Source of the DNA: Pseudomonadota bacterium
GTDB lineage: Bacteria > Pseudomonadota > Alphaproteobacteria > Rhizobiales > JAKPQE01
Direction of reading: 5' to 3'
NCBI GenBank assembly: GCA_029572955.1
Contig: JAKPQE010000113.1
Coordinates: 62,001 to 126,000, forward strand
Length of the DNA stretch: 64,000 nucleotides
The notes beneath the pieces were generated by a model. It saw only the letters and a list, made by a program, of their open reading frames with translations. It ran no database searches and had not been told where the DNA came from. Below are positions 22,777 to 29,508 of this stretch, one piece after another (positions within the stretch are counted from its first letter, which is position 1; each line of letters begins with the position of its first letter). Made by a program: the position numbers and the translations under genes.

Positions 22777-23448
22777 TCAGTCGAGCCGGTAGCCGGAGCC
22801 GCGCAGCGTCACGATGCGGCCGCCATAAGGACCGAACCGCTTGCGCAGGCGGCCAATATAGACGTCGACGATGTTGGTCATCGGATCCGACTGCGTTCCC
22901 CAGACGGTGTTGAGGATCCGCTCGCGACTGAGGGCGCGGCCCACATTGCCGAGGAGCAGGACTGCCAGGTCGCGTTCCTTGGCCGAAAGCTCGACCTCGC
23001 AGCCATCGACGAAGAACTTCTGGGATTTCGAATCGAAGCGCAGTCCGGCATGGCTGATGATGCCGACATCGCCGTCGGCCGAGAACTTGGCGGCACGGCG
23101 GTAGAGAGCCTCCAGGCGGGCGAGCAATTCCTCGAAATCGAAGGGCTTCGGCAGATAGTCGTCGGCGCCGGCGCGCAGCCCGGCGATGCGCTCGTCGAGC
23201 GCATCGAGCGCGGTCAGCATCAGCATCGGCGTGGTGTCGCCGCGCGCGCGCATGCGCTGGCACACCTCGGTGCCGGAAATCCCCGGCAGCATCAGATCGA
23301 GGATCACCACGTCGAAGCTGTAGGCGCGCATCAGGTCGAGCGCGGTCTCGCCGTCGGGGCTGTGCTCGACATTGTGCCCTTCGGCCTTCAGGCCGCGGCG
23401 AATGAAATCGGCAACGCGCGTTTCGTCCTCGACCAGCAATATGTTCAT
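22777..23448 (-). CDS. OmpR-family response regulator
   Basis: A 223-residue DNA-binding regulator. The receiver has acidic pocket Glu7/Asp8, phosphoacceptor Asp51 (VILDLMLPG), Thr79 and Lys100 (LPKPF). The C-terminal winged helix contains ELSAKERDLAVLLL, SRERILNTVWG and VDVYIGRLRKRF. Its ATG overlaps the kinase gene stop? No: the kinase lies downstream of nothing here; the kinase gene is transcribed first and its stop overlaps this... see the kinase entry for the four-base overlap. Targets unknown; nearest gene is the carbonic anhydrase-like protein. Confidence 0.94.
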   Translation of the reverse strand: MNILLVEDETRVADFIRRGLKAEGHNVEHSPDGETALDLMRAYSFDVVILDLMLPGISGTEVCQRMRARGDTTPMLMLTALDALDERIAGLRAGADDYLPKPFDFEELLARLEALYRRAAKFSADGDVGIISHAGLRFDSKSQKFFVDGCEVELSAKERDLAVLLLGNVGRALSRERILNTVWGTQSDPMTNIVDVYIGRLRKRFGPYGGRIVTLRGSGYRLD

Positions 23449-25004
23449 CGAGTCCCCTCTGCGGCGGGGGCGTCGGGAATGCCGATCCGCGCCGACATGC
23501 CACCACCTTCCCGTTCGACAATCCAGGCCTTTCCGCCATGCGCCTCGGCGATGGATCTGACGATCGGCAGACCGAGTCCGAGACCGTCAACATACACCTC
23601 CGAGGCGTTCGGGCCCCTGTAAAAGCGCTCGAAGACCCGCTCCCTGTCGGCATCGGCGAGACCGGGGCCGTCATCCTCGACCGCGATCACATAGCCGTCC
23701 GGCGTGCGCTCCAGCCGGATGGCCGTCAGGTCGCCGCCGTGGTGATGGACATTGTGCGCCAGCGCCAGAACCGCCTGCCGCAGCCGCTGCCGATCGGCCT
23801 CGATCGGGGCGGACGACAGGGCGGACTGCACCAGATCGACCTGTCCCGACAGGCCGGCGACCTCGCGCAGCAGCTCGACGAGGTCGAACCGGGCGAGCCG
23901 CAGTCGCACGCGCCCCATTTCGCTGCGGGCGATGAACAGCAGGTCGTTGACCAGCGTTGCCGTGTGAACGGTGGCGTCCCGGATCCGCCGCAGCGCCTCG
24001 CGGTAATCCTCCGGATCCTTTTCGGCACCGCGCAGGGCCACCTCGCTCTCGCCCTGAATGACGGTCAGCGGGGTGCGCAGCTCGTGGCTGACGTCGGCGA
24101 GAAGCTGGCGCCGGTCCTCCTTCGATTCCTGCTCGCGCGCCAGCATGTTCTCGAGTTCCTTCGTGCGTGCCTTCACGGCGAGCTCGAGTTGCTCGTTTCT
24201 CTGGATCAGATCCTTCGACTGCTTCAGAACGACGCCGGCCATCCGGTCGAGCAGAGTTCCGATTTCCGAGAGCTCGTCGCGCCCCTTGAGGTCGATGGCG
24301 GTATCGAAATTGCCCGCCGCGAACCCGTTCACGCCCGCCATCAGCTTGTCGAGAGGCCGGGTCAGGCGCCGCTGGAACACGATTCCGGCGCCGACCGAGA
24401 CCAGCAGAAAGGTCGCGCCGAGAAGGATCGATATTCTGCGAGCAAGAAGATGGGCCGCGGATTCGCTCGCCTCGGCGGCGGCGACCTGTTCGTGTTCGTC
24501 AGCGAGCGCCTCGGCGATGAGCGCGCGGAAGTCCTGCTTGAGGTCGGTGATGAGGATCGTGCCGAGGTCCCGCCAGTTTTCGCGGATATCGCCACGTTCG
24601 GGGGTCTGCTGGGCCTGACGGAAGCGTGCGACCAGATCGCCGATCACCTTCTCGATCTTGTCGACGCGCGCCAGTTCCTCCAATTGCCGCTCGCCGACGA
24701 GCTCGATCTCCTTGCCGATCACCTGCCGCAGCCCCGAAAGCGTGTTCTGCAGTGTGGCGACGAGCTGTTCGTTTTCCGCCTCGCGGTCGGCAGTCCCGCC
24801 AAGCAGCAGGTCACCATACCGCTTGAAGAGCAGATAGGTGTCCGCCGATACCGTCAGATGCAACTCGTAGGATTCATGCGCCAGCTCCAGCAGTTCGTTG
24901 TTGATCGCGCTGCTGCGCACCGACCAGATGGTGAGAAGGACGGAGGCCATGGAGAGTGCGAGCATCACCAGCAGGTAGCTTTTGACGAGGGTAATCAGTT
25001 TCAT
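23445..25004 (-). CDS. Sensor histidine kinase
   Basis: A 519-residue inner-membrane kinase. Order: TM1 (about 9-28), a roughly 160-residue helical periplasmic domain, TM2 (about 191-210), HAMP (to about 265), HisKA with His307 in SHELRTPLT, and HATPase_c with NVHHHGG and VEDDGPGL. It is upstream of the response regulator; in transcription order the kinase stop (23445-23447) lies within the regulator's start (23448), giving an ATGA overlap. The Met before TM1 is chosen; 26 further codons are open. The helical sensor gives no clear ligand. Confidence 0.93.
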   Translation of the reverse strand: MKLITLVKSYLLVMLALSMASVLLTIWSVRSSAINNELLELAHESYELHLTVSADTYLLFKRYGDLLLGGTADREAENEQLVATLQNTLSGLRQVIGKEIELVGERQLEELARVDKIEKVIGDLVARFRQAQQTPERGDIRENWRDLGTILITDLKQDFRALIAEALADEHEQVAAAEASESAAHLLARRISILLGATFLLVSVGAGIVFQRRLTRPLDKLMAGVNGFAAGNFDTAIDLKGRDELSEIGTLLDRMAGVVLKQSKDLIQRNEQLELAVKARTKELENMLAREQESKEDRRQLLADVSHELRTPLTVIQGESEVALRGAEKDPEDYREALRRIRDATVHTATLVNDLLFIARSEMGRVRLRLARFDLVELLREVAGLSGQVDLVQSALSSAPIEADRQRLRQAVLALAHNVHHHGGDLTAIRLERTPDGYVIAVEDDGPGLADADRERVFERFYRGPNASEVYVDGLGLGLPIVRSIAEAHGGKAWIVEREGGGMSARIGIPDAPAAEGTR

Positions 25005-25313
25005 GGCGCGGCCGCCCGGTCGTGGGAGTGAGGAAACGGTTCTCGGCAAGGGAATCTGGCACACCAACCCTGCGGGAATCACAGCGCAAGATTATTTTTC
25101 GCTGAATTCCAGATGAAGATTTCATTCGGCCCGCGCCCGAGGCGCAACCGCCTCCGAATCTTTCCCATCGGTACAAATCCCAGGGCCGGGGACAATTCGT
25201 CCCACCTTAGAGAATCCTCGTTTTTTCGGCTCCCGACACGGGTCGCCTTAGGGCTGCGTTAACCACCCCGCCGAACACTCGTCGAACGCAATTTCAAGTT
25301 GGAGACGAACGCA
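25005..25313. promoter_or_regulatory. Divergent region between the kinase and the NIT/PilZ chemoreceptor
   Basis: No gene in about 309 bp. At 25248-25263 the plus strand reads TTAG, seven bases, TTAAC, one mismatch from the CtrA consensus TTAA-N7-TTAAC, about 50 bp before the chemoreceptor start. CtrA control of chemotaxis genes is common in Rhizobiales, but one imperfect match is weak support. Confidence 0.4.
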
Positions 25314-27647
25314 ATGATGCGGCTGGTCAATAACGCTTCGATCTCGGTACGCATCGCGTTCCTGTCGCTCATCCCGCTCCTGGCGCTGATGGGCCTCGGC
25401 ATTTCCGATCTCGTCGACAGGCGCATGACGGCGGCGGAGGCGACGATGGTCGCCGAAATCGTCGAGCGCGCGCCGGCGATCTCCGGCCTCGTGCACGAGC
25501 TGCAGAAGGAGCGCGGCGCCTCGGCCGGCACCATCGGCTCCAAGGGCAGCGACAAGTTCGTCAGCAAGCTGAAGGCCCAGCGCAAGGCGACCGACAAGGC
25601 GCTCGCCGCCTTCCGCGCCGCCGTTCCGGCCGCCGAAGGCCGCCTCGCCTTCGACGATTTCGCCGCGCCCTTCGCGCGCTCGGCGACCGCGCTCGACCAG
25701 CTCGGCACGACGCGCGGCAAGGTCGACGACCTCTCGCTCACCGTTCCGGACATGGCCGGTTACTACACCAAGCTGATCGGCGATCTCCTCGCCATGGTCG
25801 AGAGCGTCGCGACGGCGACCGACGACGGCCGCGTGGTGCGCTCGCTCGTCTCCTACATGGCACTGCTGCAGGGCAAGGAACGCGCCGGCATCGAGCGCGC
25901 CATGGGCTCGGGCGGCTTCGGCGCCGGCAAGTTCGGGCCGGAGATCTACCGCAAGTTCGTCAGCCTCGCGGCGATGCAGACCGCCTTCGACACCGTCTTC
26001 CGGCGCTTCGGCTCGAACGAGGCCAAGTCGGCGCTCGCCGCCGTCTATGGCAGTCCGGCCCAGGCCGAAGTCGACCGCATGCGGACGATCGGCTACGACG
26101 GGCCGTTCGGCGGCGACATCTCGAGCGTCGCCGGGCCGGCCTGGTTCGACGCCGCGACGGTGCGCATCGACGCCCTGAAGTCGGTCGAGGACAAGGTCGC
26201 CGCGGATATCGTCGCCCAGGCCCATGCGATCGCGTCGGACGCCCAGTCGGCGTTCTGGATGCTGGCCGGCCTGCTCGTCGGCCTGCTCGCCCTGACGATC
26301 GCCGCCTCGACCGTCATCGCCCGCTCGCTGGCGCTGCCGCTCGGCCGCCTCGCCCGCAACATGTCGCAGCTCGCCGGCAACAACACCTCGATCACCATCG
26401 AGGGCACCGAGCGCCTGGACGAGGTCGGCAACATGGCGCGGGCCGTCGAAGTGTTCCGCGAGAACGCCATCGAGCGCGAGCGGCTGGAGGGCAACGCCCA
26501 CGCCGAGCGTGACCGCGAGCGGCACCGGCAGGCCTATCTCGAAAACCTGATCGGCCGCTTCCGCAAGGCGATGGCCGCGACGATGAGCGCCGTCGACGAC
26601 CAGACCGGCGCGATGCGCGGCACCGCGCACAAGCTCTCCGGCGTCGCCACCGCCGCCTCGGTCGAGGCGAACTCGGCCGGCGAGGCCTCGGCCGGCGCAT
26701 CCGGCAACGTGCAGACGGTGGCGGCGGCGACCGAACAGCTCGCCGCCTCGATCCGCGAGATCGCCGGCCAGGCAGGCCGCGCCAACGCCATCGTGGCGAG
26801 CGCGACCGAGACCGCCATGGCCACCGACCGCGACGTCTCGTCCCTCTCGGACGCCGCCGAGAAGGTCGGCGCCGTCGTCTCCCTCATCCAGGACATCGCC
26901 GAGCAGACCAACCTGCTCGCCCTCAATGCCACGATCGAGGCGGCACGCGCCGGCGAGATGGGCAAGGGCTTCGCGGTCGTCGCCGCGGAGGTGAAGTCGC
27001 TCGCCAACCAGACCGCGCGGGCGACCGAGGAGATTTCCGGCCAGATCGCCGGCATCCAGGGCTCGACCCGCAACGCCGTCGAGGCGATCCGCACGATCAC
27101 GCACACGGTCAGCGAGATCAGCGCCGTGACGACGATGATCGCCTCGGCCGTCGAGGAGCAGGAAGCGGCGACGCGGGAGATCGCCGGCTCGGTCTCGCGC
27201 GCCTCGGACGGCACCGCCACCGCCGTGCGCAACGCCAGGAGCGTCGCCGATGCCATCGGCGAGACGGCGCACGAGGCGCACAGCGTGCAGACCGCATCCG
27301 ACGAACTCGGCAAGGCGGCGGCCGAACTGACGGCGGTGGTCGAGAGCTTCCTTCAGGATGTCGCGCGGGATGTCCAGGAGCGCCGCGACAGCCTGCGCGT
27401 CAAGATGAGCGAAGTCGTGGTGATCCAGGCCTGCGGCCGGCGCGCGACGGGCACGATGGTCGACGCCAGCGAGGGCGGCTGCCAGATCGACGCCGCCGCC
27501 GCCGGCTGCACGGTCGGCGAGGCGGTGCGCATCCAGCTCGCGGACGGGCGCACGGTCGACGCGACGGTGGTGCGCAAGGCGGGCGAAGGTCTCGGCCTCA
27601 AGTTCGACGACCGCCTCGACAACGTCGACTGGCTGCGCTCGGCCTGA
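25314..27647 (+). CDS. Chemoreceptor with NIT sensor and C-terminal PilZ domain
   Basis: A 777-residue transmembrane methyl-accepting chemotaxis protein. TM1 (about 15-33) is followed by a periplasmic NIT-type domain ([16 protein letters not shown] near 57-72), TM2 (about 314-334), HAMP, and the signalling hairpin ([19 protein letters not shown], near 530-550). After it comes a PilZ domain with RDSLR (691-695, the RxxxR motif) and DASEGG (717-722, the DxSxxG motif), the residues that bind c-di-GMP. NIT domains respond to nitrate/nitrite in known cases. No CheR/CheB-type tail peptide. Start at the first ATG with GGAG upstream. Confidence 0.9.
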
Positions 27648-28026: not shown

Positions 28027-29508
28027 ATGATCTTCAAGAACACCGCCAACGACGATGCCGCCAAGCTCGATGCCATCGGCCGCTCACAGGCGCTGATCGA
28101 GTTCCGGCCGGACGGCACCATCATTACCGCCAACGACAACTTTCTCGCAGCACTCGGCTACTCGCTCGACGAAGTCCGCGGCAAGCATCACTCGATGTTC
28201 GTCGAGCCGACCTATCGTTCCAGCCCCGAATACAAGGAATTCTGGGAGGCGCTCGCCGACGGCCAGTATCAGGCCGACGAGTTCAAGCGGATCGGCAAGG
28301 CCGGCAACGAGGTCTGGATCCAGGCGAGCTACAATCCGGTGCGCGACCGCTCCGGCCGCACGGTGAAGGTGATCAAGATCGCCACCGACATCACCGAGGT
28401 GAAGCTGCGCAACGCCGACTTCGAAGGCCAGATCGACGCCATCAACAAGTCGCAGGCCGTCATCCACTTCAATCTCGACGGCACGATCATCGAGGCCAAC
28501 GACAACTTTCTCTCGACGCTCGGCTACTCGCTGTCCGAGATCAAGGGCCAGCACCACTCGATGTTCGTCGAGCCGAGCCATGCGGCGAGCGCGGAATACC
28601 GGGCGTTCTGGGACAATCTGCGGGCCGGCGAGTTCCAGGCCGGCGAGTTCATGCGGGTCGGCAAGGGCGGCAAGCAGATCTGGATCCAGGCGAGCTACAA
28701 CCCGATCTTCGATGCCTCGGGCAAGCCGTTCAAGGTCGTCAAGTTCGCGACGGACATCACGGCCCAGGTCGCCGAGCGGATACGCCGCGAGGAGGTGCAG
28801 AAGACGATCGACGCCGATCTCGTCGAGGTCGTGCAGGCGGTCGCCAACGCCAATGGCCGGGCCGGCAGCGCGGCTTCGGCCTCGACCGAGGCATCGGCCA
28901 ATGTCCAGACCGTTGCCGCCGCCGCGGAGGAACTCGTCGCCTCGATCGGCGAAATCAGCCGCCAGGTGGACCAGGCCTCCGCGATCGCCCAGAAGGCCGT
29001 GCACGAAGCGACGAGTTCGGGAACGATCATCAACGGCCTGTCGGACGACGCCCAGAGCATCGGCGACGTCATCCAGCTGATCGACAGCATCGCCGCCCAG
29101 ACCAACCTGCTGGCGCTCAATGCGACGATCGAGGCGGCACGCGCCGGCGAGGCCGGCAAGGGATTCGCGGTCGTCGCCTCCGAGGTGAAGAACCTCGCCT
29201 CGCAGACCACCAAGGCGACCGAGGACATCTCCGCCCGCATCCTTTCGGTCCAGGAATCGACGGAAGGCGCCGTGACGGCGATCGATGCCATCAAGGAGAT
29301 CATCAACCAGATCAGCGACATCTCGGCCGGCATCGCGGCCGCGATCGAGGAGCAGTCTGCCGTGACCCGCGACATCTCGGACAACATGCAGACCGCCTCG
29401 CGCGGCGTCACCGTGATCACCGACAATGTCCAGGCGATCTCGGCCGCAACCCAGCAGATCGACGCCGCCGCCCGAAAGGTCCGCGACGCCTCGCGTTCGA
29501 TCGCCTGA
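28027..29508 (+). CDS. Soluble chemoreceptor with two duplicated PAS domains
   Basis: A 493-residue cytoplasmic receptor with no membrane segment. Two PAS domains (about 17-123 and 139-245) are tandem duplicates: both contain [23 protein letters not shown] and WIQASYNP, and I estimate about 65% identity at an offset of 122 residues. The signalling domain follows ([20 protein letters not shown], near 357-376). The layout matches BdlA/Aer-like energy or redox receptors; cofactor unknown. It follows the NIT/PilZ receptor by 379 bp. Confidence 0.9.

Follow-up and report, generated by a model that had tools for sequence, protein, structure and literature searches.

Chemoreceptors that end in a PilZ domain have precedents in Tlp1, Aer, and Cbp1 (PMC6406031, PMC6454048, PMC13401364). 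Receptors with a NIT domain have been described separately. PacN from Pectobacterium and Dd15070 from Dickeya are reported to be nitrate-responsive (PMC13215616, PMC10832524), whereas the NIT domain of PA4520 from P. aeruginosa bound neither nitrate nor nitrite, a PA4520 mutant showed normal nitrate taxis, and the authors suggested that there are NIT subfamilies differing in ligand (PMC6381276). In the antiterminator NasR, residues E175 and R176 have been suggested as lining residues of the nitrate pocket (PMC7496416). Our literature search found a NIT domain, a PilZ domain, and a chemoreceptor nowhere combined, although absence there is no proof of absence.

In this study, we analyzed a receptor gene from a stretch of 64,000 nucleotides, hereafter the window (Table 1). 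The initial annotation had proposed a transmembrane NIT receptor with a PilZ domain at its C-terminus, to be checked by a domain search. When run with Pfam, this search recovered NIT, HAMP, MCPsignal, and PilZ, all above the curated cut-offs, with membrane-spanning-type hydrophobic stretches on both sides of the NIT domain. Because the NIT domain is bracketed by these two stretches, it is placed in the periplasm. NIT was the only sensor recovered, as PilJ or NarX-like sensors gave no Pfam match in the receptor at E up to 1. At the other end of the protein, the PilZ domain lies C-terminal to the MCP signalling hairpin, and the two c-di-GMP motifs that had been claimed for it, RxxxR and D/NxSxxG, are both present in the translation at residues 691-695 and 717-722. 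The architecture is not a product of chance, since full-length homologues with 40-58% identity to the receptor keep the domain order unchanged and the model of the tail resembles known PilZ structures.

Table 1 Features of the receptor gene and its product, with positions in the window
Feature	Residues	Position	Strand	Basis or remark
Receptor gene	777 aa + stop (27645-27647)	25314..27647	+	Order TM1-NIT-TM2-HAMP-MCP-PilZ
GGAG		25301-25304	+	9 bases upstream of receptor ATG
TM1 hydrophobic stretch	about 7-35	25332..25418	+	Kyte-Doolittle
NIT sensor domain	59-299	25488..26210	+	Pfam PF08376, E 1.2e-64; NasR 4akk, 2.9e-23
R67	67	25512..25514	+	Aligned with NasR R50; NIT-MCP/NasR alignment
R195, proposed nitrate-pocket residue	195	25896..25898	+	Aligned with NasR R176; alignment; PMC7496416
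R257	257	26082..26084	+	Aligned with NasR R236; NIT-MCP/NasR alignment
TM2 hydrophobic stretch	about 310-343	26241..26342	+	Kyte-Doolittle
HAMP domain	334-384	26313..26465	+	Pfam PF00672, E 2e-6
MCP signalling domain	499-625	26808..27188	+	Pfam PF00015, E 5.9e-27
MCP hairpin tip	526-553 (28 residues)		+	Invariant columns in alignment
PilZ domain	689-771	27378..27626	+	Pfam PF07238, E 1.2e-10; beta-barrel model; PilZ structure matches
RRDSLR, c-di-GMP motif 1	690-695 (RxxxR 691-695)	27381..27398	+	Translation; 37-receptor comparison
DASEGG, c-di-GMP motif 2	717-722	27462..27479	+	Translation; 37-receptor comparison

The NIT domain of the receptor keeps all three NasR-type pocket arginines (R67, R195, and R257), and the corresponding columns of our NIT-MCP alignment hold arginine in 38, 37, and 38 of its 38 rows, respectively. 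NasR R50 and R236 are also said, in the paper on the NasR structure, to have a role in the pocket. NasR residues are numbered here as in chain 4akk_A minus 27, an offset fixed by the E175 and R176 named in the literature (PMC7496416). The conserved arginines support an anion pocket, but fall short of proving nitrate.

The genome that carries the receptor encodes NapA (L190, above the NapA cut-off), a CheA frame with two CheW matches, and one stand-alone CheW, together with one flagellin-like match, 10 GGDEF matches, 16 MCP signalling domains above the cut-off, and three PilZ proteins. Thus, this organism combines nitrate reduction with chemotaxis and c-di-GMP signalling. The third PilZ protein (L177:6860-7735, minus strand, G000:C66) has 292 aa, in which Pfam finds two PilZ stretches and nothing else. 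Two molybdoenzymes are encoded on G000:C50; one (L194) is an arsenite-oxidase-type large subunit that exceeds its cut-off, and the other (L191) is NasA/formate-dehydrogenase-like and below all cut-offs. Within the window, genes for a HAMP histidine kinase and an OmpR-type response regulator (22777-25004, minus strand) are oriented divergently to the receptor gene, from which ~300 intergenic bases separate them. A PAS-PAS-MCP protein without NIT or PilZ is encoded just downstream on the same strand (28027-29505, plus strand), so that two chemoreceptors are consecutive, and acyl-CoA genes are also found in the neighbourhood. None of the genes adjacent to the receptor is a nitrate-metabolism gene, and the immediate neighbourhood gives no hint of the ligand. 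A conserved gene neighbourhood was also considered and rejected; the window neighbours recur beside none of nine relatives, and the other matches were only MCPs or antisense frames.

An AlphaFold2 model of the tail (residues 660-777), computed from eight related tails, has a helix that leads into a barrel of six strands (mean pLDDT 81.6). While phmmer with the tail alone against the PDB returned nothing usable, a fold search with Foldseek was successful. Its top matches are PilZ structures, with E down to 2.3e-5, and the matches include the c-di-GMP-bound PilZ structures 4xrn, 8u0i, 3kyg, and 2rde as well as the MapZ-CheR1 complexes 5xly and 5y4r. A full-length AlphaFold model, considered for the placement of PilZ relative to the hairpin, was too weak (mean pLDDT 72.8, pTM 0.45) and was not used. 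Of 37 distinct NIT-MCP-PilZ receptors, 26, including the window copy, retain all five motif residues (RxxxR plus [DN]xSxxG), and the motif is degraded in the other 11. Across the 37 receptors, R691 is invariant and position 690 is arginine in 36, which places both among the most conserved positions of the tail. On the basis of motif and fold, the window tail is predicted to bind c-di-GMP.

In relatives from family f216, the second arginine is replaced by lysine and motif 2 reads TLSEEG, SLSASG, or TLNEDG, as in tails that pair RRADLK with TLSEEG or SLSASG. The c-di-GMP motif has been lost from the PilZ tails of L230, L231, L232, L235, L236 (family f216), L244, L245, and L248, in which the sensor and the hairpin are still intact; their relatives L226, L227, and L233 keep the motif. 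The 11 receptors with a degraded motif indicate that canonical binding is not required for the tail to be retained.

The initial annotation had called the pairing of NIT with PilZ less familiar. Each of the two parts is known, and the pairing does appear to be uncharacterized, but it recurs widely in the order to which the window belongs and elsewhere in the Alphaproteobacteria. Among 397 sampled genomes of this order, 43 gave alignments from sensor to tail, the genome of the window counted. A full-length alignment was taken as one running from about residue 12 or earlier to residue 727 or later; on this basis, a class-wide sample of 385 genomes added only two further genomes (G335 and G043:C19), and the phylum-wide sample gave no full-length match outside the class at the threshold used. 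For the full-length relatives whose sequences were retrieved, HMMs built for this study confirmed the architecture, as did a Pfam scan for several, but not every one. Named examples come from Denitrobaculum tricleocarpae (L004) and an uncultured Kiloniellaceae bacterium (L005, 5884-8262).

Some relatives have additional domains. The 974-aa receptor from G043:C19 (L261:1250-4171) has CZB on its N-terminal side, followed by NIT, HAMP, MCP, and PilZ. Three receptors of 1085-1089 aa (L042:4960-8214, L048:4291-7545, and L074:4306-7572) contain two tandem NIT-like sensor repeats in addition to MCP and PilZ, the repeats being seen by iterated HMM and not by Pfam. Apparent giant fusions in the genus g344, with frames of 2168-3132 aa near relatives, were dismissed as artefacts of runs of N (5000-7500 bases).

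In a 38-row tree from which the tail was left out, the window receptor belongs to an eight-row PilZ-tailed clade with an SH-aLRT value of 97. That NIT-MCPs acquired the PilZ tail only once was rejected on the same tree (p-AU 7e-5). In a FastTree phylogeny of 101 rows, the PilZ label requires 10 changes, at least eight of which are forced by well-supported branches. Judged from these trees, the PilZ architecture is one that has been gained or lost repeatedly.

The ends seen on NIT-MCPs comprise no tail, PilZ, CZB, and hemerythrin, the last in L204:1390-3987 and L207:1462-3984 (Pfam 3e-15 and 5e-14, respectively). The CZB tail occurs in the same genome as the window receptor, on a second NIT receptor (L175:5297-7777, minus strand, G000:C86) with the order NIT-HAMP-MCP-CZB and no PilZ. 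This paralogue is about 59% identical to the window receptor in NIT and about 55% in HAMP, but its cytoplasmic part is MCP-CZB, of the zinc-binding type, instead of MCP-PilZ. Among the sequences compared, the closest to its hairpin and CZB tail (50%) is a Protoglobin-MCP-CZB-PilZ receptor of the same genome, and the cytoplasmic module of the paralogue appears to derive from a CZB-type MCP. Protoglobin, MCP, CZB, and PilZ are all encoded in one 688-aa frame (L176:8276-10339, minus strand, G000:C129), probably an oxygen/haem sensor with zinc-binding and c-di-GMP-type tails. A hairpin and PilZ tail like those of the window receptor are also found behind a dCache_3 sensor (L180; hairpin 62% and tail 57% identical). 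From the CZB-tailed paralogue and the dCache_3 receptor, it appears that sensor and cytosolic module have been exchanged as blocks. A tentative extension, which may well not hold, is that NIT chemoreceptors form a family with a swapped cytosolic end (none, PilZ, CZB, or hemerythrin), so that a single external anion signal could be balanced against various internal states. Under this reading, the two receptors with similar sensors in this organism may divide a shared cue, one through a c-di-GMP channel and the other through a zinc/redox channel.

The window receptor is probably a Tlp1-like PilZ-tailed chemoreceptor in which a periplasmic NIT domain senses nitrate, nitrite, or a similar anion and c-di-GMP sets gain or adaptation, the ligand, the c-di-GMP binding, and the direction and mechanism of modulation being what we infer. 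Its most likely function is a nitrate/nitrite-type response tuned by c-di-GMP. The anion would be bound by the NIT domain, and TM2 and HAMP would relay the signal to the CheA-controlling hairpin. Cytosolic c-di-GMP would be bound by the PilZ domain fused right after the second helix of the hairpin, and may shift the RRxxxR linker at the hairpin base so that the gain or adaptation of the receptor is altered. An external electron-acceptor or nitrogen cue and the internal motile or sessile state would then be integrated in one receptor, as has been proposed for Tlp1 of Azospirillum brasilense. As for the input, nitrate is plausible, in view of the three conserved pocket arginines and the nitrate responses of PacN and Dd15070 (PMC13215616, PMC10832524), but not certain, given the NIT domain of PA4520. 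The findings on PA4520, from binding and mutant taxis to the suggested ligand subfamilies (PMC6381276), together with the lack of nitrate genes beside the receptor, would also fit the same architecture with a NIT domain that senses a ligand other than nitrate or nitrite. We consider that rather unlikely, as the same arginines, the NapA encoded in the genome, and the nitrate-responsive NIT receptors elsewhere all speak against it.

As for the output, sequence cannot distinguish kinase control from an effect on adaptation, that is, a MapZ-like methylation effect in cis. We are inclined to doubt that the tail acts mainly on adaptation, hindering or recruiting CheR/CheB in a c-di-GMP-dependent manner as a cis version of MapZ instead of controlling the kinase directly. 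That the tail matches MapZ-CheR1 complexes in structure would agree with such a role, as would the reported link that MapZ makes between c-di-GMP and receptor methylation (PMC6370697), and the receptor ends in WLRSA, which seems to offer no obvious CheR-tethering pentapeptide. However, the MapZ match reflects the PilZ fold in general and is uninformative on the partner. A structural or vestigial tail, without c-di-GMP control, is improbable; the degraded motifs in 11 of 37 relatives and the frequent gain and loss of tails would be in keeping with it, but the five motif residues are complete in the window copy as well as in 25 others.

The pairing provides a recurrent, sequence-defined case in which one protein could receive both a nitrate-type external signal and c-di-GMP. 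If it does, the retuning of chemotaxis by c-di-GMP could be tested directly on a receptor that probably binds a simple anion. Untailed, CZB-tailed, hemerythrin-tailed, and motif-degraded relatives are natural controls within the family.

Among described systems, the receptor differs from the nitrate sensors NarX, NarQ, and McpN, which are of the PilJ type with a P-box and a GxxR box and to which it does not belong. It has the NIT domain and the three pocket arginines in common with NasR (4akk), a NIT-ANTAR antiterminator with an RNA-binding ANTAR output instead of an MCP hairpin. PacN, Dd15070, and PA4520 are likewise chemoreceptors described with a NIT or nitrate-sensing domain, but a PilZ tail is absent from their descriptions, on which, and not on sequence, this comparison is based. 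The MCP hairpin and a C-terminal PilZ with conserved motif residues are found in Aer of A. brasilense and Cbp1 of Azorhizobium; in contrast to the window receptor, Aer has a cytoplasmic PAS domain and Cbp1 is soluble and, as described, consists of just an MCP domain and PilZ (PMC6406031, PMC6454048). A Kd of about 15 uM for c-di-GMP has been reported for Cbp1. The comparison with Azospirillum Tlp1 made in the initial annotation was apt, as both are alphaproteobacterial membrane chemoreceptors with a C-terminal PilZ. Tlp1 also has a periplasmic sensor, an MCP hairpin, and a PilZ that binds c-di-GMP (PMC6406031, PMC6454048), but, compared by description and not by sequence, its ligand is reported as unknown (PMC6406031) and the sensor here is NIT. 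The NIT-PilZ pairing is thus a recurrent variant of the PilZ-tailed chemoreceptors and not a new kind of system.
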